Part shown: one piece after another, positions 7,401 through 47,607 of the stretch
How the letters are laid out: each line of letters starts with the position of its first letter
How positions within the stretch are numbered: position 1 is the stretch's first letter
DNA from: Verrucomicrobiota bacterium
GTDB lineage: Bacteria > Verrucomicrobiota > Kiritimatiellia > CAIQIC01 > JAGNIJ01
Reading direction: 5' to 3'
DNA length: 64,000 nt
Assembly: GCA_022710725.1 (NCBI GenBank)
Contig: JAKLGK010000012.1
Span: forward strand, 1-64,000
Translations under genes and position numbers: made by a program
The notes under the pieces: generated by a model
The model's database searches: none
What the model was told of the DNA's origin: nothing
What the model saw: only the letters and a program-made list of their open reading frames with translations

Positions 7401-9190
7401 CCACCGGCGCGGTCGGCCGGGCGCTGGTCTGCCGTTCGGACAGCAACGACGGCGATCCGCTGGACTGGAGCGGGACCACCCCGACGCCGGCTTCCACCAA
7501 CCGCGTGCCCAACATCAGGCTCCTGGCGGGCGCCTCGGTGTCCATCTCGCCCGCGGCGACCGGGGCGTTCACCAACGGCGTGTGGTCGGGCCTGATCACC
7601 GTGAACGAAACCGTCTCCTCGATGATCCTGCGGGCCAGCACCAACGGGATCACGGGCGATTCCAATGCGTTCGCCGTGGACGCGGCCTCGGGCACGCCGA
7701 CGCTTTCCACGCTGGCGGTCAGCAACCTGGCCCCGACGTCGGCCATGAGCGGCGGCAACATCACCTCGGACGGCGGAGCCTCCGTGACCCAGCGCGGCGT
7801 GTGCTGGAGCACCAATTCGACCCCGACGACCAACGACACACGGACCAGCAACGGCTCCGGCGCCGGCTCCTACTCGAGCAGCCTGGCGGGCCTGGCCCCC
7901 GGCCGGTCCTACTATGTGCGCGCCTACGCGATCAATGCCAACGGGGTGGGGTACGGCAGCGCCATCGGCTTCTCGGCTGATTGCTTCACCAACGCGCCCG
8001 GCGGACTGACGACCGGGTCGGTCGCGGAAACGTCGTTCACCGCTGCGTGGAATGCCTTGGACGGGGCCTTGGGATATCGCCTGGACGTGAGCACGAGCGA
8101 AGCATTCACCGGGGGCGGAGGAGGAGATTCCACCAACCTGGTCCGGTTCGAGTTCGCCGCGGCGCCTTTCCTCGCGCCCGAGACCGTGGCGGGCGTCGTG
8201 ACGTGCTCGGTCATGTCCCTCTCCTCCGGGACGATCGAGACCAACGTGACAACGGGCATCTACTTCCCGAACGAGCCGTATATCGAGGAGACCGGGGGAT
8301 GGACCGCCGGCAGCCAGGCGGGCGCCAAGTACTTCGCCTTCACGATCTACCCGCTTACCGGCTACAGCGTTTCCATCACGGGCATCACCTTCCGTGCCTA
8401 TGCCACCGCGGCCGGGCCTTCGGCTTTCTCATGGGATATTGACGGCGGCGCGGCCACCCACACGGTCAACGCGCCGGAGGCTTCTCTCGTGCTGGTCAAC
8501 GATCCCGTGACGGGCGTGGAGTACAAGGATTCGCCCATGGTGGTGATGATCCAGGGGTGGACGAACGGATCGAGAAGCACCTCGGGCACCGGCGTGTTCC
8601 GCCTGGACGACGTGCAGATTTCGGGGACGGTGGGCATCGGAGGCGGATCGTCCTACGTCGCCGGCTATTCCGACCGGGCCGTGGATGGAACCAGCCAGTC
8701 GGTCACCGGGCTCGTGGCGAGCACGCCGTACTACTTCCGGGTTCGCGCGGTTTCCGACGGCGGCTGTGCCAGCGGCAACTCGTCCACGCAGTCGGTGACC
8801 ACGAGCGGCGGCGGCCTGCCGGCCTGGTATACCGACTGGGCCGCGGCGCAGGGCTTCGATCCCTACGGGCCCAACGGCGGCATGGACGACGACTACGACA
8901 GTGACGGGACACCCAATGTCGATGAATACACCGGTGGGACGGGCGCCACCAACGGCACCTCCGAGTTCGCGGTGTTCGATCCGCTCCTGCTGACGCCGGG
9001 CCAATACAGCCTGACCGTCGACGTCGTCACGGGCCGCATCTACAGTGTGTACTATAAAACGAATCTCACCGACGACCTGAACTGGTCGCTCTTCAAGGCC
9101 TGGACCAATCTGCCCGCTGGATCGCAGGATCTGATCCTGACCAACAGCGAAATCCTGCAACTGTACCGGTTGGGCGTGCGGGTACCGTAA
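4418..9190 (+). CDS. Secreted subtilisin-like (S8) serine protease with C-terminal modules
   Basis: A 1590-residue exported protease. The signal peptide is MRKFAILMACAMATPLLAA. The S8 domain shows Asp241 in AVCDTGLD, His278 in GHGTHVAG, the oxyanion Asn in FAAGNEG and Ser504 in GGTSMATP, so the catalytic triad is intact. A jelly-roll-like P domain follows around residues 590-700. After it come beta-sandwich segments, an fn3-like region (near residues 1090-1210 and 1400-1460), an aspartate-rich DDDYDSDGTPNVDEY turn and a final module ending YRLGVRVP. The last roughly 480 residues match the next gene closely in order and wording, with an insert. ATG 4418 is used because it gives the signal peptide. 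The likely role is extracellular protein degradation. Confidence 0.93.
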   Translation: MRKFAILMACAMATPLLAAEPLLLDAGRIDTSAPEQQQQFQEWRTARRSLSQKRAASGKAPWIVQFNDMVREEWEKAMTEAGADLRGYLPENAYLVEATPETIAAIGAMDGVYWVGEYLPEYKRARPVREAMARGIAGTRNVNVVVFNPDDAERIGQAIAALPRCAVLLAEPMTDRGLVRASLTAAAMEEVAGWGEVEWIEPYTPKKLCNDVAQGTSKMNVSNAWSVLGLSGAGQTIAVCDTGLDTGNTNTLHRDFTGRVAWVQALGRVGDWSDFDGHGTHVAGSILGSGASSSGKYRGGSYAASLVFQSVLDSSTNLGGIPSDLNVLFRAAYTNGARIHSDSWGSADTGEYTTDSRNTDMWIWSNKTMLVLFAAGNEGIDADKDGVVDLDSLNSPGTAKNCLTVGASENYRTTGGYSTYQYGVDLWTNDYPAEPIKSDYPSSPNSPQGLVAFSSRGPCNDGRIKPDIVAPGSDIISTRSKASTDTGWGTVSGNTNYIYMGGTSMATPLTAGSAGLVRQWLVNSAGITNPSAALMKAVLICGARHMAPGQYGTGADQEIPYTRPNNVMGWGHVDLYNTLQPAASQYMSLYDTNSLVTGGTNIFTFTVGSTTTNKIVVTMAYSDYFATAGSGKKLVNDLDLTVLKPSSTTLYANGRTSVDATNNVEMVEFEPNETGTYTVRVVGRTVPSGGSQPYALVIRGWNAAAGDSFDVSSSGSFSPAGPAGGPFAPTSTVYSLTNSGVASLNWTAVKGAGLTWLDLSRTNGTLAAGTATSVSFMVNAATAASLATGLFSGTVTFSNVTSGATVSRSAALTVRGISQLIWNSVSSPQLESTPFVATLTAKDSETQTVTAFAGPVALSGVVSATSTVGTATNGWIFPMSTYYHDARTQVIYLQSELGSATVLQGLALNVATIPGQGLGNWTIRMKHTAASTQSSWEGPASGWTTVYQDDATALATGWTWFAFSTPFSYNGVSNLLVDFSHNNSSYSTDGQVRSSTGAVGRALVCRSDSNDGDPLDWSGTTPTPASTNRVPNIRLLAGASVSISPAATGAFTNGVWSGLITVNETVSSMILRASTNGITGDSNAFAVDAASGTPTLSTLAVSNLAPTSAMSGGNITSDGGASVTQRGVCWSTNSTPTTNDTRTSNGSGAGSYSSSLAGLAPGRSYYVRAYAINANGVGYGSAIGFSADCFTNAPGGLTTGSVAETSFTAAWNALDGALGYRLDVSTSEAFTGGGGGDSTNLVRFEFAAAPFLAPETVAGVVTCSVMSLSSGTIETNVTTGIYFPNEPYIEETGGWTAGSQAGAKYFAFTIYPLTGYSVSITGITFRAYATAAGPSAFSWDIDGGAATHTVNAPEASLVLVNDPVTGVEYKDSPMVVMIQGWTNGSRSTSGTGVFRLDDVQISGTVGIGGGSSYVAGYSDRAVDGTSQSVTGLVASTPYYFRVRAVSDGGCASGNSSTQSVTTSGGGLPAWYTDWAAAQGFDPYGPNGGMDDDYDSDGTPNVDEYTGGTGATNGTSEFAVFDPLLLTPGQYSLTVDVVTGRIYSVYYKTNLTDDLNWSLFKAWTNLPAGSQDLILTNSEILQLYRLGVRVP

Positions 9191-9213
9191 CGCGCGCCGG
9201 ACTCCGTTGATCC

Positions 9214-9255
9214 GACAGATGAGATACTCATGTTCTGTCTGTAAAAACGTTTTAC
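9214..9255 (+). terminator. Double hairpin after the S8 protease gene
   Basis: Two adjacent inverted repeats lie 23 bases after the stop codon. The first is GACAGA paired with TCTGTC, with TGAG/CTCA inside it (9214-9239). The second is GTAAAA-ACG-TTTTAC (9241-9255). There is no long T tract after the first stem, so termination is only a suggestion; the second stem could also be a protein-binding site. Confidence 0.35.
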
Positions 9256-9312
9256 CAATGACTCGTTCATAACCCCCTGAAAGACAAGGCATTTGAAAAT
9301 CGTTTTGATTGC

Positions 9313-9340
9313 TTGATGCTCCATAAGTATGCAATACTAA
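9313..9340 (+). promoter_or_regulatory. Candidate sigma-70-like promoter of the C1 protease gene
   Basis: TTGATG at 9313-9318 and TACTAA at 9335-9340 are separated by 16 bases, in an AT-rich stretch that stands out from the GC-rich surroundings, 50 bases before the start codon. The assignment is by eye only. Confidence 0.35.
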
Positions 9341-9390
9341 ACAACACGTTTCATGATTTCGTTCCGCCATTCCCTGCCCTGGAGGCGACC

Positions 9391-12105
9391 ATGTTGAGTT
9401 CCTTCGCCCGCGCAATAGTGTGCATGCTTTGCCTCGTGGCCTTTAGCCCGATCCCCGCCCCGGGCCAGGACGGCGACCTGCCGGATCCTTCGACCTTGCC
9501 GCCGTTGCGGACGATTACGACCCGTTACGGAGCCTTCAAACTGGGGAAACGGCCGTATCCTGCAGGCACCCGTTCCGCGTGGATCGCGGAGGGGCGCGTA
9601 CTGGCGGCCGCGCCCGAGGGCGTGCTTCCACGCCGCACGACCCTCAAGGGTGCGGCGACCAACACCAACTACCTGCCGGCGATCGGCAACCAGGGCAGCG
9701 AGGGCTCCTGCGTCCACTGGGCCGGCACCTACTACGTCAAGACAGCCAACATGAAACACAGGGAACCGTCGCTGAATCTCTCGTTGAGCAGCAACCGGTG
9801 TTCGCCCCGCTTCACGTATAACCTGACCAACATCGGGGAGGACAACGGGGGATACGGACACGAGCCGTTCGAGATATTCATGCGGTACGGGGTCGCGTCG
9901 CTCGCGCAGTTGCCCTATGTCGAGGGCGATACGAACAGCCTGCCGGACACCGCTGATTTCATCGAGGGCCTGCACCGACGCTCGACCAACTACGTCTGGG
10001 TGTGGGACTGGAACCCCGGTACCACGGAGATCAATGAACTAAAGGCCTGGCTGGATGCCGGAGGCGTGGCTTCCTGCGCGATTTACGTGGATGACGCGTA
10101 CTCCATCGATGACTGGGCCCCCAGCGATCCCCCCTACACGGGCGAAACCTGCACGTACGACGACTTGAATCACATGGTCACGGTCTGCGGGTACGGTTCC
10201 GGGTGGTATCTGATTGCCAACTCGTGGGGCACAAGCTTCGGCAGCAACGGCTTCATCTATATCGACTCGGACTACTTCGAAAACTATGTGGGCGATATCA
10301 TGTATCCCCTGGAGGGGGTCTATACGCCATCCAGCAACTACCTCAAGTATACGGTCAACCACACCCAGCGCAGTGACATCCAGGAACTGCTCGTCACGGT
10401 CAACGGGGCCAACGTGTGGAGCAACTACCCGCTGCCGAAGAATCTGCCGAAAGACACCGGCTCGTTCGACACGGACACCCGGAACAATCTGGAAATCGCG
10501 ATAGACTTGTCCCTCGTGAGCGGCCTGGGCAACTCTATTGTCACCGCCCGTTGCATGGACAGCGTGTCGAGCTACAACGGCACCGTCACGGTGTGCTCCG
10601 TGTATTACGCCGGGACGGAATACGCCTCGGCCAGCGTGCCGACGTCGGTGACGTACAACGTCTATTCCAGCGCCAAGGTGGCGGTGACGGCCGGGGCCAG
10701 CCCGCCGACGGTGGCGACGCTGGCTGTCAGCAACGAGACGCCGACGGGCGCGATGAGCGGGGGGAACGTGACGGACGACGGCGGGGCGTCGGTCACGCAG
10801 CGCGGGGTGTGCTGGAGCACGTCCTCGTCGCCGACGACCAACGACAGCAAGACCAGCAACGGGAGCGGAACCGGGTCCTTCTCCAGTTCGCTGACCGGCC
10901 TCACGCCGGGCCAGGCTTACTATGTCCGCGCGTACGCCGTGAACAGCAACGGGGTGGGGTACGGCAGCGATGTCGGCTTCTCCGCGGACTGCTTCACCAA
11001 CGCGCCGGGCGGGCTGACCGCCGGCTCGGTGAGCGAAACCTCGTTCGCGGCCTCGTGGAGCACGGTGGGCGGCGCCACGGGATACCGGCTGGACGTGGCC
11101 ACGAATGCGACCTTCGCGGGCGGGGGCGACGGAAACGGCGGGGTGGAAGGCTTCTCCGGGATCGGCGGCGGGACGACGAGCAGCTATCTGACGCGCATCT
11201 GGACGAACAACGGCGTGGCCTGGACCGCGTACAAGGCGCGCACGGACCAGAGCATCGACGGCGGCTCCGCGATCTGCCTGCAGAACGCGGCCGACGCCTG
11301 GTTCACGTCCGGCACCCTGACGGGCGGCATGGACGAGGTCTCGGTGGTGCACCAGCAGGTCTTCGCGGGCAGCGGGGGCACGTTTGACCTGTTCGTCAAC
11401 GGCACGAAGGTGACCTCCGCCGTGCCGATCACGACCTCGATCACGACGACCCGTGTGACGGGGATCGGCGTGACGGGCGATTTTACGATCATGGTCACGA
11501 ACAGCGGCGCGGTGCGCGTGATTTTCGACAACCTGGCCTGGACCAATGCGGGATCCGGCGGGTCGGCTTACGTGCCCGGGTACCAGAACCGACCCGTGGC
11601 CGGGACCAGCCAGTCCGTGACGGGGCTGACCGGCGGGGCGACTTACTACTTCCGGGTCCGCGCGGAGGGCGCCGCGGGGTGCGTGAGCGGAAACTCGTCG
11701 ACGCAGTACGTGACCACGAGCGGCGGGGGCCTGCCGGGGTACTACACCGACTGGGCGGACGACCAGGGCTTTGATCCGGAAGGCCCCAACGGCGGGATGG
11801 ACGACGACTACGACGGCGACGGCACGCCCAACATCGACGAATACACCGCCGGGACCGGCGCCACCAATGGCCTGTCGGAGTTTGTCGTGGAGAATCCCGA
11901 GAGCGCGTCGGCGACCCAGTGCAGCCTGACCGTGGACGCGATCACAGGCCGGATTTACAGCGTGTATTACAAGACGAACGCCGTGGACGGCCTTCCCTGG
12001 ACGCTGTTCAAGGCGTGGACCAACCTGGGCGCGGGCGAGCAGGACCTGGTTTTGACCAACGCGGCTCTCCTGCAGCTGTACCGGCTGGGCGTTCGGGTGC
12101 CGTAA
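9391..12105 (+). CDS. Secreted papain-like (C1) cysteine protease with C-terminal modules
   Basis: A 904-residue exported protein. ATG 9391 has GGAGG seven bases upstream and starts a signal peptide (MLSSFARAIVCMLCLVAFSP). The peptidase domain shows Cys107 in NQGSEGSCVHWA, His261 in DLNHMVTVCGYG and Asn277 in ANSWGTSFGSNG, the C1 catalytic set; the usual CWAF is altered to CVHWA. From about residue 430 the protein carries fn3-like and beta-sandwich segments, DDDYDGDGTPNIDEY and a C-terminal module ending YRLGVRVP. All of these are shared with the S8 protease upstream. The pair appears to combine different catalytic heads with one inherited tail, probably for secretion, anchoring or substrate binding. 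Confidence 0.9.
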   Translation: MLSSFARAIVCMLCLVAFSPIPAPGQDGDLPDPSTLPPLRTITTRYGAFKLGKRPYPAGTRSAWIAEGRVLAAAPEGVLPRRTTLKGAATNTNYLPAIGNQGSEGSCVHWAGTYYVKTANMKHREPSLNLSLSSNRCSPRFTYNLTNIGEDNGGYGHEPFEIFMRYGVASLAQLPYVEGDTNSLPDTADFIEGLHRRSTNYVWVWDWNPGTTEINELKAWLDAGGVASCAIYVDDAYSIDDWAPSDPPYTGETCTYDDLNHMVTVCGYGSGWYLIANSWGTSFGSNGFIYIDSDYFENYVGDIMYPLEGVYTPSSNYLKYTVNHTQRSDIQELLVTVNGANVWSNYPLPKNLPKDTGSFDTDTRNNLEIAIDLSLVSGLGNSIVTARCMDSVSSYNGTVTVCSVYYAGTEYASASVPTSVTYNVYSSAKVAVTAGASPPTVATLAVSNETPTGAMSGGNVTDDGGASVTQRGVCWSTSSSPTTNDSKTSNGSGTGSFSSSLTGLTPGQAYYVRAYAVNSNGVGYGSDVGFSADCFTNAPGGLTAGSVSETSFAASWSTVGGATGYRLDVATNATFAGGGDGNGGVEGFSGIGGGTTSSYLTRIWTNNGVAWTAYKARTDQSIDGGSAICLQNAADAWFTSGTLTGGMDEVSVVHQQVFAGSGGTFDLFVNGTKVTSAVPITTSITTTRVTGIGVTGDFTIMVTNSGAVRVIFDNLAWTNAGSGGSAYVPGYQNRPVAGTSQSVTGLTGGATYYFRVRAEGAAGCVSGNSSTQYVTTSGGGLPGYYTDWADDQGFDPEGPNGGMDDDYDGDGTPNIDEYTAGTGATNGLSEFVVENPESASATQCSLTVDAITGRIYSVYYKTNAVDGLPWTLFKAWTNLGAGEQDLVLTNAALLQLYRLGVRVP

Positions 12106-12124
12106 CGGGCCGTGTTTTGTCGGT

Positions 12125-23999: not shown

Positions 24000-26087
24000 A
24001 TGACTTCGTCGAACCCAGGCCGACTCAACGCCGCGCTGCTCGTTTTCCTGGCGGGGACATGCGTGATGGGCATGGAACTGGCCGCGGGCCGCCTGCTGTC
24101 GCGGGTCATGGGCCAGTCGCTGTACACCTGGACCTCCATCATCGGCGTGGTCATGGCGGGCCTTTCGCTGGGCAACAGCCTCGGCGGCCGGCTGGCGGAC
24201 CGGTGGCCCGCCCCGGTGATCCTGGCCTGGTCGCTGTTCCTGGCGTCGCTGTCCTGCTTCGTTGTCCCGCCGCTGCACCAGGCGATCGCCGGCTGGGTCT
24301 GGCTCTGGGATTTTTCAGGTCCGGTCCGCGTCCTTGTTCATGCGGCGGCGGTATTCTTCGCGCCGGCCCTCCTCATGGGCCTCATCCCGCCCGTGGCGGC
24401 GCGCGTGGCCCTTGGCGAGGGAGGGACCCCCGGCCGCACGCTGGGCCGGCTCTATGCCTGGAACGCCGGCGGCAGCATCGCGGGGACGTTCCTGGCGGGC
24501 TTCTTCCTTGTCGCGGCCGTCGGGGCGCTGGGCACCGTTCTGCTGGCCGGGGCGGGACTGGGTTTCCTGCTCCTGTCCACGGGCGGGCGGGCGAAAGGCT
24601 GGGCGCTGGCGGCCGCCCTACTGCTGTGGATCGGCCTCGCGCCGGGCTCCCTCGCGACCCGCCTTGGCCGGGCGCTGCGCCTCCGCGACAACCCGGCGGC
24701 CAACGTGGTGTACCACGACGAAAGCCAGTACTCGTACATCGCCGTCAAGACCACGGACCGTCCCGGCGTGCGCGGCCTGTACCTCGACAAGATGATGCAC
24801 AGCGAGATGGACATCCACGATCCCTCGAAGCTGCTCTACAAGTACGCGTGGATCTACGAGGCCGCCCTGGACCATTTCTCGCCCGCGCCCGCGCCGGTCT
24901 CCGCCTTTGTCATCGGCGGGGGCGGCTACACCTTTCCCCGTTACCTCGCCCTGACCCGGCCGGGCAGCCGGGTGGACGTCGCGGAGATTGATCCGGCCGT
25001 CACGCGGGCGGCGCAGGCCGCCTGCGGGCTGGAGCCGGACGCGAATATCCATATCCATCACCTCGACGCCCGGAACTTCGTGGAGGACCTGGTGCGAAGG
25101 AAGGATGGGGTAGGGCGGGTTCGCCGAACCCGCCGGGATTTCGGCGCGTTGGGCCAACGCGCCCTACCAGATGTGCCCCCCTATGACTACATCTTCGGCG
25201 ACACGTTCAACGACTACTCGGTCCCGTACCACCTGACCACGGTCGAGTTCACCCGCGCGCTGGCCGGGTTGATGAGCGACCGGGGGCTGTACATGCTGAA
25301 CATGATCGACCGCTTCGACTCCGGCCGGTTCCTGGCGGCGGTCGTCGCGACGTTCCGGGAGGCGTTCCCCGGCGTGTACGTATTCTTCTGCCACCGCAAC
25401 CTGACCTCGCGCGGCACCTACGTCGTCATCGGATCGAAGCGCGCGCTGGAGGCTTCCGACCTGGCCGCCATGACCGAGCGGTTGCGGAAGCGGCCGGACT
25501 TCTTCGGCTTCCTGCTGACGGCGGAGCAGGTGGACGGCCTGCTCGCGCGAACGCGGGCCCGGCCCCTGACCGACGACTATGCCCCGGTGGAGAACCTGCT
25601 GGCCGACGTCGTCCGCCGCGACCGGCCGGAGGGGTTGGATTTCGAGCACATCCGGAACGGCCTGCGCGAGGCCGAGCAGGGCCGCCTGGACGAGGCCGTC
25701 CGCGAATTCGAGCGGGCGCTGGAACTTAACCCGTCCAACGTCAAGGCCCTCTACAACCTCGGCGTCGCGCGGATGAACCAGGGCGAGTTGCGCAAGGCGC
25801 TGCAGGTCTTCGGCGCCGCGCTCGAGGCGGAGCCCGAGAACGCGGACGTCCGGAACAACGCGGGCGTGAGCCTGGCCCGGCTCGGGATGTACGACCAGGC
25901 CGCGGAGCAGTTCGAGGCGATCGTGCGCCTGCAGCCGGAGTCCGTGGACGCGCGGGTCAACCTGGCCGCCATCCGCGCGCAGCAGGGCAGGGGAGACGAG
26001 GCGCGGGCGCTCCTGCAGGAAGCCCTCCGATTGAATCCCGACCACGTCCAGGCGCGGCAGAACCTGCAGGCGCTGGGCAGCCGGTAG
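24000..26087 (+). CDS. Membrane-anchored spermidine synthase-like protein with TPR tail, carrying a REP insert
   Basis: A 695-residue protein. The first roughly 220 residues are about seven hydrophobic helices (GTCVMGMELAAGRLLSRVMG, GLSLGNSLGGRLADRWPAP). Then comes a spermidine synthase-type Rossmann domain (VIGGGGYTFPRYL, VDVAEIDPAV, HHLDARNFVEDL, YDYIFGDTFNDYSVPYH), and TPR repeats from about residue 540 (LNPSNVKALYNLGVARMNQG and two more). ATG 24000 follows 113 bases of divergent spacer. Residues about 369-390 are encoded by a 60-base REP element (see that entry) that keeps the frame. The stop codon TAG lies inside a second REP. Whether it makes polyamines is uncertain; such fused proteins are often of unknown function. 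Confidence 0.85.
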   Translation: MTSSNPGRLNAALLVFLAGTCVMGMELAAGRLLSRVMGQSLYTWTSIIGVVMAGLSLGNSLGGRLADRWPAPVILAWSLFLASLSCFVVPPLHQAIAGWVWLWDFSGPVRVLVHAAAVFFAPALLMGLIPPVAARVALGEGGTPGRTLGRLYAWNAGGSIAGTFLAGFFLVAAVGALGTVLLAGAGLGFLLLSTGGRAKGWALAAALLLWIGLAPGSLATRLGRALRLRDNPAANVVYHDESQYSYIAVKTTDRPGVRGLYLDKMMHSEMDIHDPSKLLYKYAWIYEAALDHFSPAPAPVSAFVIGGGGYTFPRYLALTRPGSRVDVAEIDPAVTRAAQAACGLEPDANIHIHHLDARNFVEDLVRRKDGVGRVRRTRRDFGALGQRALPDVPPYDYIFGDTFNDYSVPYHLTTVEFTRALAGLMSDRGLYMLNMIDRFDSGRFLAAVVATFREAFPGVYVFFCHRNLTSRGTYVVIGSKRALEASDLAAMTERLRKRPDFFGFLLTAEQVDGLLARTRARPLTDDYAPVENLLADVVRRDRPEGLDFEHIRNGLREAEQGRLDEAVREFERALELNPSNVKALYNLGVARMNQGELRKALQVFGAALEAEPENADVRNNAGVSLARLGMYDQAAEQFEAIVRLQPESVDARVNLAAIRAQQGRGDEARALLQEALRLNPDHVQARQNLQALGSR
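25109..25168. repeat. REP element copy 1, in frame inside a coding gene
   Basis: A 60-base element bounded by GGTAGGGC and its exact complement GCCCTACC. It contains two hairpins, ggcgggttc-gcc-gaacccgcc and ggcgcgttg-ggc-caacgcgcc. Its length is a multiple of three, and it is read through as about 20 residues between RRKDG and PDVPPYDYIF of the spermidine synthase-like protein. GATG occurs on both sides and could be a target duplication. Confidence 0.85.
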
Positions 26088-26138
26088 GGCGGGTTCGCCG
26101 AAAACCCGCCGCGGCGCGCTCGGCGAGCGCGCCCTACC
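26083..26138. repeat. REP element copy 2, supplying the stop of the upstream gene
   Basis: A 56-base copy with the same GGTAGGGC...GCCCTACC ends. The hairpins are ggcgggtt/aacccgcc and ggcgcgctc-ggc-gagcgcgcc. Compared with copy 1 the second stem differs by paired changes (ttg/caa to ctc/gag), so pairing is conserved. The TAG at 26085-26087 is the stop codon of the spermidine synthase-like gene. Confidence 0.85.
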
Positions 26139-26156: not shown

Positions 26157-26182
26157 GGTAGGGCGGCTTGGCCCGAGCCGCC
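26157..26182. repeat. Half REP element copy 3, just upstream of the RAYT gene
   Basis: A single-hairpin form: GGTAGGGC leading into ggcggct...agccgcc. It lies 20 bases before the transposase start, the position where RAYT genes commonly have a flanking REP. Confidence 0.75.
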
Positions 26183-26202
26183 GTGCATGATAGCCTGATA
26201 CC

Positions 26203-26649
26203 ATGCTCCCGCAACGGAAGGAACTGCCCCATGAACCTCCAGCCTGGGTAGAGGGGGGCGCGGTCTATTTCATCACGATTTGCGCCGGGCCTCGGGGCGT
26301 CAACACGCTGGCCCGGCCGGATGTGGCTCCATGGATTCTTGAAACACTGGTTTTTCGAGAGGCGCGAGGAGATTGGTCTGTGCGGCTTGCGCTGGTAATG
26401 CCGGATCACATTCACCTGTTGATGAGTTTCCCGCGTGATCCGGGCCTGGCACAGACTCTCGGCCAATGGAAACGCTATGTCGCGCGCGCAAAGCTGGTTC
26501 AGTGGCAACAGGGTTTCTTTGAGCATCGCCTGCGGAAGGAAGAAAGCCTGATCGAGAAAGCGGCCTACATTCGGGAGAATCCTGTCCGGGCCGGACTCTG
26601 TGCGCGATGGGAAGAGTGGCCGTATGTAATGTCCAAGGGCCTTTGGTAG
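26203..26649 (+). CDS. REP-associated tyrosine transposase (RAYT, Y1_Tnp family)
   Basis: A 148-residue Y1 HUH-type transposase. The HUH pair is His69 and His71 in MPDHIHLLM, and the likely nucleophile is Tyr122 in AAYIRENPVRAGL. Other family blocks are VYFITICAGPR, then GQWKRYVARAK, and the terminal WEEWPYVMS. RAYTs are domesticated relatives of IS200/IS605 transposases that act on REP palindromes. Here four GGTAGGGC-type elements lie within about 1.6 kb, one on each side of the gene, and the stop codon TAG (26647-26649) lies inside the downstream REP. No clear ribosome binding site is visible. Confidence 0.92.
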   Translation: MLPQRKELPHEPPAWVEGGAVYFITICAGPRGVNTLARPDVAPWILETLVFREARGDWSVRLALVMPDHIHLLMSFPRDPGLAQTLGQWKRYVARAKLVQWQQGFFEHRLRKEESLIEKAAYIRENPVRAGLCARWEEWPYVMSKGLW

Positions 26650-26743
26650 GGCGGGTTCGCCGAACCCGCCGCTCTTTCGGCGCGTTGAGCCCCGTGAGAG
26701 GGGCGTTGCCCCCAACGGGGGCTCACGCCCAACGCGCCCTACC
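26645..26743. repeat. REP element copy 4, expanded, overlapping the RAYT stop codon
   Basis: A 99-base copy with the usual GGTAGGGC and GCCCTACC ends. The first hairpin is identical to copy 1. The second hairpin carries a nested insert: outer stem ggcgcgttg/caacgcgcc, then gagcccc/ggggctc and an inner cgttg-cccc-caacg-like stem. It covers the RAYT stop codon. Confidence 0.8.
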
Positions 26744-45675: not shown

Positions 45676-46618
45676 CGCACGCGGCCCGCGTCGGGGGCAA
45701 GCCTGGACGATTCCAGGCCTGGCGCTGGAGATGCCGTGGATCCCTCCGGGGCGCGCCGGGTTGGGCAGTACGCCGGAAGAGCGCGCTTGGGCGGAGGGGC
45801 CGGAGGGCATGGCGCCGCGCAACTGGTTTGTGGACGAGGGGCTGCAACCCCGCCCGGTCGTTTTTAAGCGCGGGTTCTGGATGGGGAGGACGGAGGTAAC
45901 GCGGGGCCAGTGGCGGCAGTTTGTGGAGGCCACCGGTTATGTTTCGGAGGCGGAAAGGAAGGGCGAGGCGTGGGGTTACGATGCGGCCTCCGGCAGGATG
46001 GCGAATCTCCCGGGCTTGAACTGGCGCGAGACGGGCTTCCCTTTCCCCGTGCGCGACGATCATCCGGTTTCATTTGTAACCTGGAACGATGCGGCCGCAT
46101 TCTGTCGCTGGCTAACGGAACGCGAGGCCGCGGCGGGCCGGTTGCCGTCCGGCTATGCGTACCGCCTGCCGGGCGAGGCGGAATGGGAGTATGCTTGTCG
46201 GGGCGGGCGGACGCGGACGGCGTTCTGGTGGGGAGACTCGCTGCAGGACGGGCACGGCCGCATGAACGCCGCCAGCCAGGATGCCGATGAAAAAGGGGGC
46301 TGGGACATGGCCTGCCCTTGGCCGGACGGGTTCAAGTTTATTGCGCCGGTGGATACCTACGGTGAACGAGGCCGTAATGGTTTTGGGCTGGCCGACATGC
46401 TGGGGAACGTGTGGGAGTGGTGCGCGGACGGGTACGATCCGGACGGGGCGCACGCCATGATATGGACCAACAGGACCCCGCGGCGCATCCTGAAGGGCGG
46501 GGCCTTCGACGATCGTCCCGGTTACCTGCGCTGTGCCGTCCGGTCGGCGCCCAAGCCCGATGATGCGAACCTGGCGCGGGGTTTCCGCGTGTGTCTGGGT
46601 GGAAAGGTCGAACCGTGA
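45611..46618 (+). CDS. SUMF1/FGE-domain lipoprotein lacking the catalytic cysteines
   Basis: A 335-residue exported protein. The signal ends in LLLTGC (Cys20), a lipobox. The body follows the FGE-sulfatase fold: FWMGRTEVTRGQWRQFVEAT, HPVSFVTWNDAAAFCRWL, YRLPGEAEWEYACRGG, FGLADMLGNVWEWCADGY, and a final GGAFDDRPGYLRCAVRS, ARGFRV. In true formylglycine-generating enzymes the segment after GGS carries two copper-binding cysteines; here it reads FDDRPGYLR, so that pair is absent. A structural or other enzymatic role is likely. It overlaps the GT4 gene by 65 bases. Confidence 0.87.
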   Translation: MRRFLNRRWLLAGVLLLTGCCDARGPRRGQAWTIPGLALEMPWIPPGRAGLGSTPEERAWAEGPEGMAPRNWFVDEGLQPRPVVFKRGFWMGRTEVTRGQWRQFVEATGYVSEAERKGEAWGYDAASGRMANLPGLNWRETGFPFPVRDDHPVSFVTWNDAAAFCRWLTEREAAAGRLPSGYAYRLPGEAEWEYACRGGRTRTAFWWGDSLQDGHGRMNAASQDADEKGGWDMACPWPDGFKFIAPVDTYGERGRNGFGLADMLGNVWEWCADGYDPDGAHAMIWTNRTPRRILKGGAFDDRPGYLRCAVRSAPKPDDANLARGFRVCLGGKVEP

Positions 46619-47607
46619 GGGTTCGTCGGGCCATCGCGGGGTTGTGGCTGGCCGCGCGGGTCATGGCGTCGGGTGTCGAGCCCGGACAGGATCATGAAAT
46701 CGGGGAACTGGGTATCGTGATGAAGTGGATTCCGCCCGGACTGTGCCAGGTGGGTTCGGGTCCCTACGAGCAGGAGTGGACCGATGGTCCGGAGGGGCAG
46801 GGGAATCGCAAGTGGTTCGCCAACGAGGGCCCGTCCCTGGCGTACTTCGAGTCCGGCTTCTGGCTGGGCCAAACCGAGGTAACGATTGAGCAGTGGCAGA
46901 TGTTTGTCGCCGGCACGGGGTATGTCACGGACGGGGAGCGGCAGGGCTTCGCGTGGGGATTTGACTGGCAACTCAAGACGCTGGCGAACGTGGACGGGGC
47001 CAACTGGCGTCAACCCACGTACGGCCTGCCGCTGCGGCCGGACCATCCGGTTTCCTGCGTGAGTTGGAACGATGCCATGGCCTTTTGCGAATGGTTGACG
47101 GCGCGCGAAGCGGCGGCCGGGCGACTGCCCGAGGGCTACGAGTATCGCTTGCCGGGCGACGCGGAGTGGGAGTACGCGTGTCGTGGCGGGCAAGGGGACA
47201 CCCGCTTCTGGTGGGGCAACAGCTTGGCCGGCGGCGAAGGTCGTCTCAACGCGGCGGGGGACGATGTCGTGGTCCCCGGCGATCCCGCGTGGCGATGGAA
47301 CAATCCGTTCCCGTGGAGCGATGGATACGGATTCATTGCGCCGGTGGATGCGTACGGAGAGCGCGGCCGGAACGGGTTCGGCCTGGCGGACATGCTGGGC
47401 AATCTGTGGGAGTGGTGTTACGACGGATACGACCACCATGGCGCGCATGCCCGGATATACATGAAGGGGACATCCAACCGCCTGTTACGGGGCGGGGCCT
47501 TTGACGATCGTCCCGCCTTTCTGCGTTGCGCCGTTCGCCAGGCGCCGGCTCCGGAAGAGGCCAATTTCGCGCGCGGCTTTCGCGTGTGCCTGGGTTCGCC
47601 GCCCTGA
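46615..47607 (+). CDS. Second SUMF1/FGE-domain exported protein (tandem paralog)
   Basis: A 330-residue paralog of the preceding gene, sharing motif order, for example FWLGQTEVTIEQWQMFVAGT, HPVSCVSWNDAMAFCEWLTA, YRLPGDAEWEYACRGG, FGLADMLGNLWEWCYDGY and GGAFDDRPAFLRCAVRQ. It too lacks the FGE catalytic cysteines. The start is GTG 46615, overlapping the previous stop (GTGA), with GGAAAGG upstream; the N-terminus looks like a plain signal peptide (ASGVEPGQ follows) rather than a lipoprotein signal. The tandem copy suggests duplication; the two may act together in the envelope. Confidence 0.86.
   Translation: MRVRRAIAGLWLAARVMASGVEPGQDHEIGELGIVMKWIPPGLCQVGSGPYEQEWTDGPEGQGNRKWFANEGPSLAYFESGFWLGQTEVTIEQWQMFVAGTGYVTDGERQGFAWGFDWQLKTLANVDGANWRQPTYGLPLRPDHPVSCVSWNDAMAFCEWLTAREAAAGRLPEGYEYRLPGDAEWEYACRGGQGDTRFWWGNSLAGGEGRLNAAGDDVVVPGDPAWRWNNPFPWSDGYGFIAPVDAYGERGRNGFGLADMLGNLWEWCYDGYDHHGAHARIYMKGTSNRLLRGGAFDDRPAFLRCAVRQAPAPEEANFARGFRVCLGSPP

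Follow-up and report, generated by a model that had tools for sequence, protein, structure and literature searches.

Palindromic repeats of the REP kind usually lie between bacterial genes and are parasitic. The window analyzed here, a stretch of 64,000 nucleotides from a Verrucomicrobiota bacterium (contig JAKLGK010000012.1), contains such a repeat inside a spermidine synthase-like gene, and the questions are how it came to be there and what has kept it as a repeat since. A sequence-only reading had described a 60-base element with the ends and two stems of its family, read in frame for 20 codons without a stop between the blocks DARNFVEDL and YDYIFGDTF, and the present analysis bore out each of these points and placed the element in a genome-wide family.

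A complete REPIN read in frame

The element at 25109-25168 (GGTAGGGCGGGTTCGCCGAACCCGCCGGGATTTCGGCGCGTTGGGCCAACGCGCCCTACC) is a complete REPIN, GTAG...CTAC, with two REP hairpins and a spacer (Table 1). The GTAG tag (25110-25113) and the CTAC tag (25164-25167) each adjoin a short palindrome, every base of both 9-bp stems is paired, and the two inverted REPs form one unit, the whole of which folds as a single hairpin. As a single strand it folds far better than its shuffles (z −4.8). A BLAST search of its own genome (G000) with the element gave 42 match rows, some of which are one place matched on both strands. The strict family pattern, GTAGGGCG...CGCCCTAC, was counted 22 times in this genome and 77 times in a second genome of the same genus (G001, the sister species), and the same pattern reversed, which served as the control, had no occurrence in either. 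The catalogue of REPINs used below comprises 91 copies taken from these two genomes; the spacer sequence differs from copy to copy in the family.

Table 1. Features of the host gene region and loci of further coding REPINs
Feature	Position or locus	Strand	Basis or remark
Host gene, fused MFS-like/spermidine synthase domain/TPR protein, 695 aa	24000..26087	+	NF037959, TPR families
Coding REPIN, GGTAG...CTACC, 60 bp	25109..25168	+	encodes V371-P390
REP arm 1, GGCGGGTTCGCCGAACCCGCC	25114..25134	+	9-bp stem, 3-nt loop
Spacer GGGATTTC separating the two REP arms	25135..25142	+	
REP arm 2, inverted, GGCGCGTTGGGCCAACGCGCC	25143..25163	+	9-bp stem, 3-nt loop
REPIN at 3' end of host gene	26083..26138	+	its GTAG supplies the TAG stop of the gene
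Single REP between host gene and RAYT	26157..26184	+	conserved in G001
RAYT, REP-associated tyrosine transposase, 148 aa	26203..26649	+	NF047646, 86.6 bits, cut-off 80
REPIN downstream of RAYT	26645..26743	+	holds the TAG stop of RAYT
Eco57I/N6 methylases	L093, L153 (twice), L155		Pfam domains on both sides, around or near the site
Type ISP enzymes	L104, L123, L135		Pfam domains; L104 by homology to L123
M36 peptidase	L102		Pfam domains on both sides, around or near the site
AllH-family protein	L172		Pfam domains on both sides, around or near the site
Coding REPIN in ORF	L140		ORF as sole basis

The host ORF begins with ATG at 24000 and ends with the stop codon at 26085-26087, and its frame across the REPIN reads V-G-R-V-R-R-T-R-R-D-F-G-A-L-G-Q-R-A-L-P (residues 371–390). 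The protein matches the NCBIfam family NF037959 (fused MFS/spermidine synthase) with an E value of 1.7e-95 and 320 bits against a cut-off of 40, and its C-terminal region matches TPR families. An AlphaFold model of the spermidine synthase part, built from five sequences, has a mean pLDDT of 80.8, and the closest fold to the modeled domain is that of Corynebacterium spermidine synthase 3gjy. The REPIN segment (residues 139–155 of the domain model) has pLDDT below 50 and is the main low-confidence internal stretch. Because it stands between helix 123–139 and strand 161–167 in the model, and 3gjy has just a few residues at this place, the insertion appears to be located in a surface turn, with the REPIN-encoded segment modeled as a disordered loop between helix and strand.

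The RAYT gene is located about 1 kb downstream of the coding REPIN, with REPs on both its sides. It was identified through NCBIfam; a Pfam scan of the protein gave no match at threshold. The RAYT of the sister species occupies the same place and is 74% identical, and the order of gene with internal REPIN, REPIN at the stop codon, single REP, RAYT and REPIN is common to the two genomes. The TAG stops supplied by REPINs (26083-26087 and 26645-26649) are also found in G001 (L122, about 1157 and 1730). Among 55 REPINs with a recognizable upstream coding frame, a number that depends on a simple coding score, the in-frame stop is TAG in 26 (P 0.03 versus one third). In the REPIN at 26645-26743 the loop of the second hairpin holds an extra stem, or inverted repeat, and the G001 counterpart of this REPIN has a different insertion, in the first hairpin. 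Elsewhere in the window, 7692-12110 and 45871-47590 contain long direct repeats of 70–79% identity that are probably tandem paralogous genes. Among the sampled genomes, a class-level relative (G055) has 57 RAYT-family matches, far above any other.

Insertion site and codon-level evolution

All orthologues examined outside the genus, at order and class level, are without the segment. In the nearest of these, G036, about 50% identical, the site reads K-R-L-V-G followed directly by D-V-S-P-Y, and compared with it the window species gains exactly 18 codons (54 bp), that is, the 58-bp REPIN core minus four bases. The comparison with related proteins that had been suggested from the sequence thus came out in favor of an insertion, with 18–20 residues missing outside the genus; orthologues with the same residues encoded by unrelated DNA were also looked for, and none was seen. 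Within the genus the comparison is with one other genome, G001, a GTDB scan for further members having returned only this species and distant relatives, and a search of viral contigs having returned none. At this position G001 also has a REPIN that is read in frame, perfect but unlike the one in the window species; it carries KELVGRLGSSRRDGGALAQRALPVAIPEVPGYDY and is followed at its 3' side by 12 further in-frame bases (GGTAGGGCGGCTTGGCTCAAGCCGCCGGGACGGCGGCGCGTTGGCCCAACGCGCCCTACC).

The empty site in G036 and the occupied one in the sister species lead us to reject the earlier suggestion that the GATG on both sides of the element is a target-site duplication. The right GATG corresponds to the ancestral D-V codons (GAC GTC in G036, GAA GTC in G001). 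The left GATG occurs in the window species only, where the codons are AAG GAT GGG (AAG GAA TTG in G001, AAG CGT CTG in G036). The idea of a GTAG that was there beforehand as the insertion target (G036 has GTCGGG) is only suggestive; in published work GTAG is a motif for recognition or guiding, and the cut is made at CT or CA (PMC8266576).

In a codon alignment of the window host gene with its G001 orthologue, dS is 0.93 and dN 0.09 upstream of the insert (dN/dS about 0.1), and 1.05 and 0.18 downstream of it (dN/dS 0.17), values that point to purifying selection on both flanks. For the 18 REPIN codons dS is 0.13 and dN 0.25, and none of the 309 other 18-codon windows in the aligned part has pS as low. 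Of the 18 REPIN codons, 2 are changed at the third position, compared with 45% in the rest of the alignment (Fisher P 0.006). Two base pairs of arm 1 are changed on both sides, GGG-TTC/GAA-CCC having become GGC-TTG/CAA-GCC, which leaves all nine pairs intact and rewrites four consecutive residues from V-R-R-T to L-G-S-S; arm 2 differs by one base. By this comparison it is the DNA identity, or the palindrome, and not the peptide that is kept or renewed. Such a pattern would be expected if other REPs renewed the element, if it was inserted anew, or if selection acted at the DNA level. An old insertion left to drift does not fit it, and neither does selection on the peptide. We found no description of such DNA-level conservation of a coding REPIN between species in the literature consulted.

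Other coding REPINs in the two genomes

The REPIN family lies mostly outside detected genes, and the statement that coding sequence does not normally contain REPs stands as a trend. It fails as a rule, for at least 12 of the 91 catalogued copies fall within ORFs and are read in frame, and a paper of 2013 had already reported intragenic GTAG REPs (PMC3733652). The stems of the coding REPINs were not significantly weaker than those of the other copies (12 versus 79, P 0.17). Further in-frame copies are found at L093, L102 and L104 in the window genome and at L123, L135, L140, L153, L155, L172, L186 and L208 in G001. The first copy at L155 has diverged and is not part of the strict catalogue, and the in-frame reading of a copy at L091, which seems to be a gene's antisense shadow, was left out of the count.

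Many of the coding REPINs are in genes of DNA-methylase or restriction type, and several adjoin SAM-binding motif I; at L093, L153 and L155 an insertion is located immediately ahead of the DPACGSG motif. The L093 site, in an Eco57I-type gene, is also occupied in G001 (L186, where the contig is broken within the REPIN). The type ISP paralogues L123 and L135 of G001 have different REPINs, with opposite arm order, at one site, and their orthologue in the window genome, L104, is empty at that site, its REPIN being in another part of the gene. Two type ISP relatives, L208 in G001 and L203 in a genome of another family (G009), share one in-frame site at which both carry REP-like DNA (ATAGGGCGC.../GTAGGGCGA... 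ahead of CAGCAATTGACCGAATTC).

Origin, maintenance and known systems

What, then, is the history of the REPIN in the spermidine synthase-like gene? We consider it very probable that it was inserted before the two species split, or at the same codon position in both, that the gene remained functional, and that the upkeep since then has been at the level of DNA. A non-autonomous REPIN, presumably mobilized by the RAYT 1 kb downstream, would have entered the gene, and the insertion would have survived because its length is a multiple of three, the TAG within GTAG falls outside the reading frame, and it landed in a surface turn. Such a turn could tolerate about 20 disordered residues, and we infer tolerance by the protein rather than benefit to it. 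The element may have been maintained as a REPIN because other REPs converted it, because it was inserted anew, or because selection favored recognition by the RAYT; upkeep of this kind would leave both species with perfect, different hairpins, the peptide having drifted along.

The alternative that deserves most attention is that different REPINs were inserted independently at the same permissive codon position after the species had split. Recent arrivals would give the low dS, arm 1 and the 3' flank are not the same in the two copies, and the window copy is 54/58 identical to a non-orthologous copy of G001 (L165), compared with about 85% to its positional counterpart; the two type ISP paralogues of G001 provide a precedent for different REPINs at one site. 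Nevertheless, we regard two insertions as rather unlikely, for the copies agree in base position, orientation, 58-bp core length and reading frame, arm 2 has a single base difference, and a second coding site (L093/L186) is occupied in both species too. The similarity of the spacers, 5/8, does not exceed that seen among unrelated copies and was discarded as proof of one ancestral insertion.

Recruitment of the REPIN-encoded peptide for a protein function, with selection on the amino acids, would account for a frame kept in both species and for the identity of 12 of the 18 insert residues. It is very improbable given that dN exceeds dS in the insert and that the third positions are the most conserved, which is the opposite of protein-level selection; moreover, the replacement of four consecutive residues in arm 1 kept the base pairing, and the segment is modeled as disordered. 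Least credible of all is a broken or decaying host gene in which the in-frame insertion is a matter of chance: a random insertion keeps the frame one time in three on general grounds, but both flanks are under strong purifying selection between the two species and the motifs are intact. Against an assembly artefact stands the fact that two genomes, binned separately, share the arrangement. Returning to DNA-level upkeep, we propose tentatively, as a reading that we find plausible without preferring it, that the coding REPINs of this genus are kept perfect at the level of the DNA, whether sister REPs convert them, the RAYT acts on them or selection favors recognition of the hairpin, across a divergence that gives a dS of about 1 in the host gene. 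If they are so kept, the repeat population would go on rewriting parts of host proteins, always at the same sites.

The best-known analogue is provided by the palindromic elements of Rickettsia (RPEs). Insofar as they are described in PMC3733652, the present case shares with them palindromic mobile DNA in frame in functional genes, and here the insertion is likewise in frame in a functional gene and absent from orthologues outside the genus. The comparison drawn in the sequence-only reading is apt as to a coding REP, more exactly a REPIN, with analogous workings, but not as to family. RPEs carry CGTC ends and the ends here are GTAG/CTAC; in the account of PMC3733652, RPE-4 and RPE-6 are of the CGTC-tagged class without a dedicated transposase, whereas this element is GTAG-tagged and accompanied by a RAYT. 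The enterobacterial RU sequences, as presented in PMC2759123, are also small, mobile, intragenic repeats that add peptide sequence; they are MITE-like elements of 103–168 bp and not of the REP/RAYT type.

As a kind, the coding REPIN is already known; its evolution is unusual. Intragenic GTAG REPs, most of them in the Verrucomicrobium O. terrae, were listed by Di Nocera et al. 2013 (PMC3733652), with which our case shares GTAG-ended REP dimers inside ORFs (coding for 20–30 residues there), TAG stops supplied by REPs and a RAYT-linked family, and in Xanthomonas recB different REPs were found at about one site, as here. It differs from those cases in species, host gene and stem sequences, and goes beyond them in that one site was compared codon by codon in two species, with conservation at the DNA and not the protein level. 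With the REPINs of 2011 (PMC3116915) it has in common the inverted REP doublet with spacer, the long hairpin, the many copies per genome and a RAYT gene flanked by copies; those REPINs were described as essentially extragenic, and here a copy is inside a conserved gene.

In most studies REPs have been treated as extragenic, and here a coding copy can be compared per codon across two species. In that comparison the DNA palindrome wins over the peptide, with low synonymous change, high amino-acid change and paired changes in the stem. If this is true in more species, such sites would provide a direct measure of the homogenization of REPIN populations, and the mobile palindrome would be seen to go on supplying proteins with new segments where their loops are tolerant.
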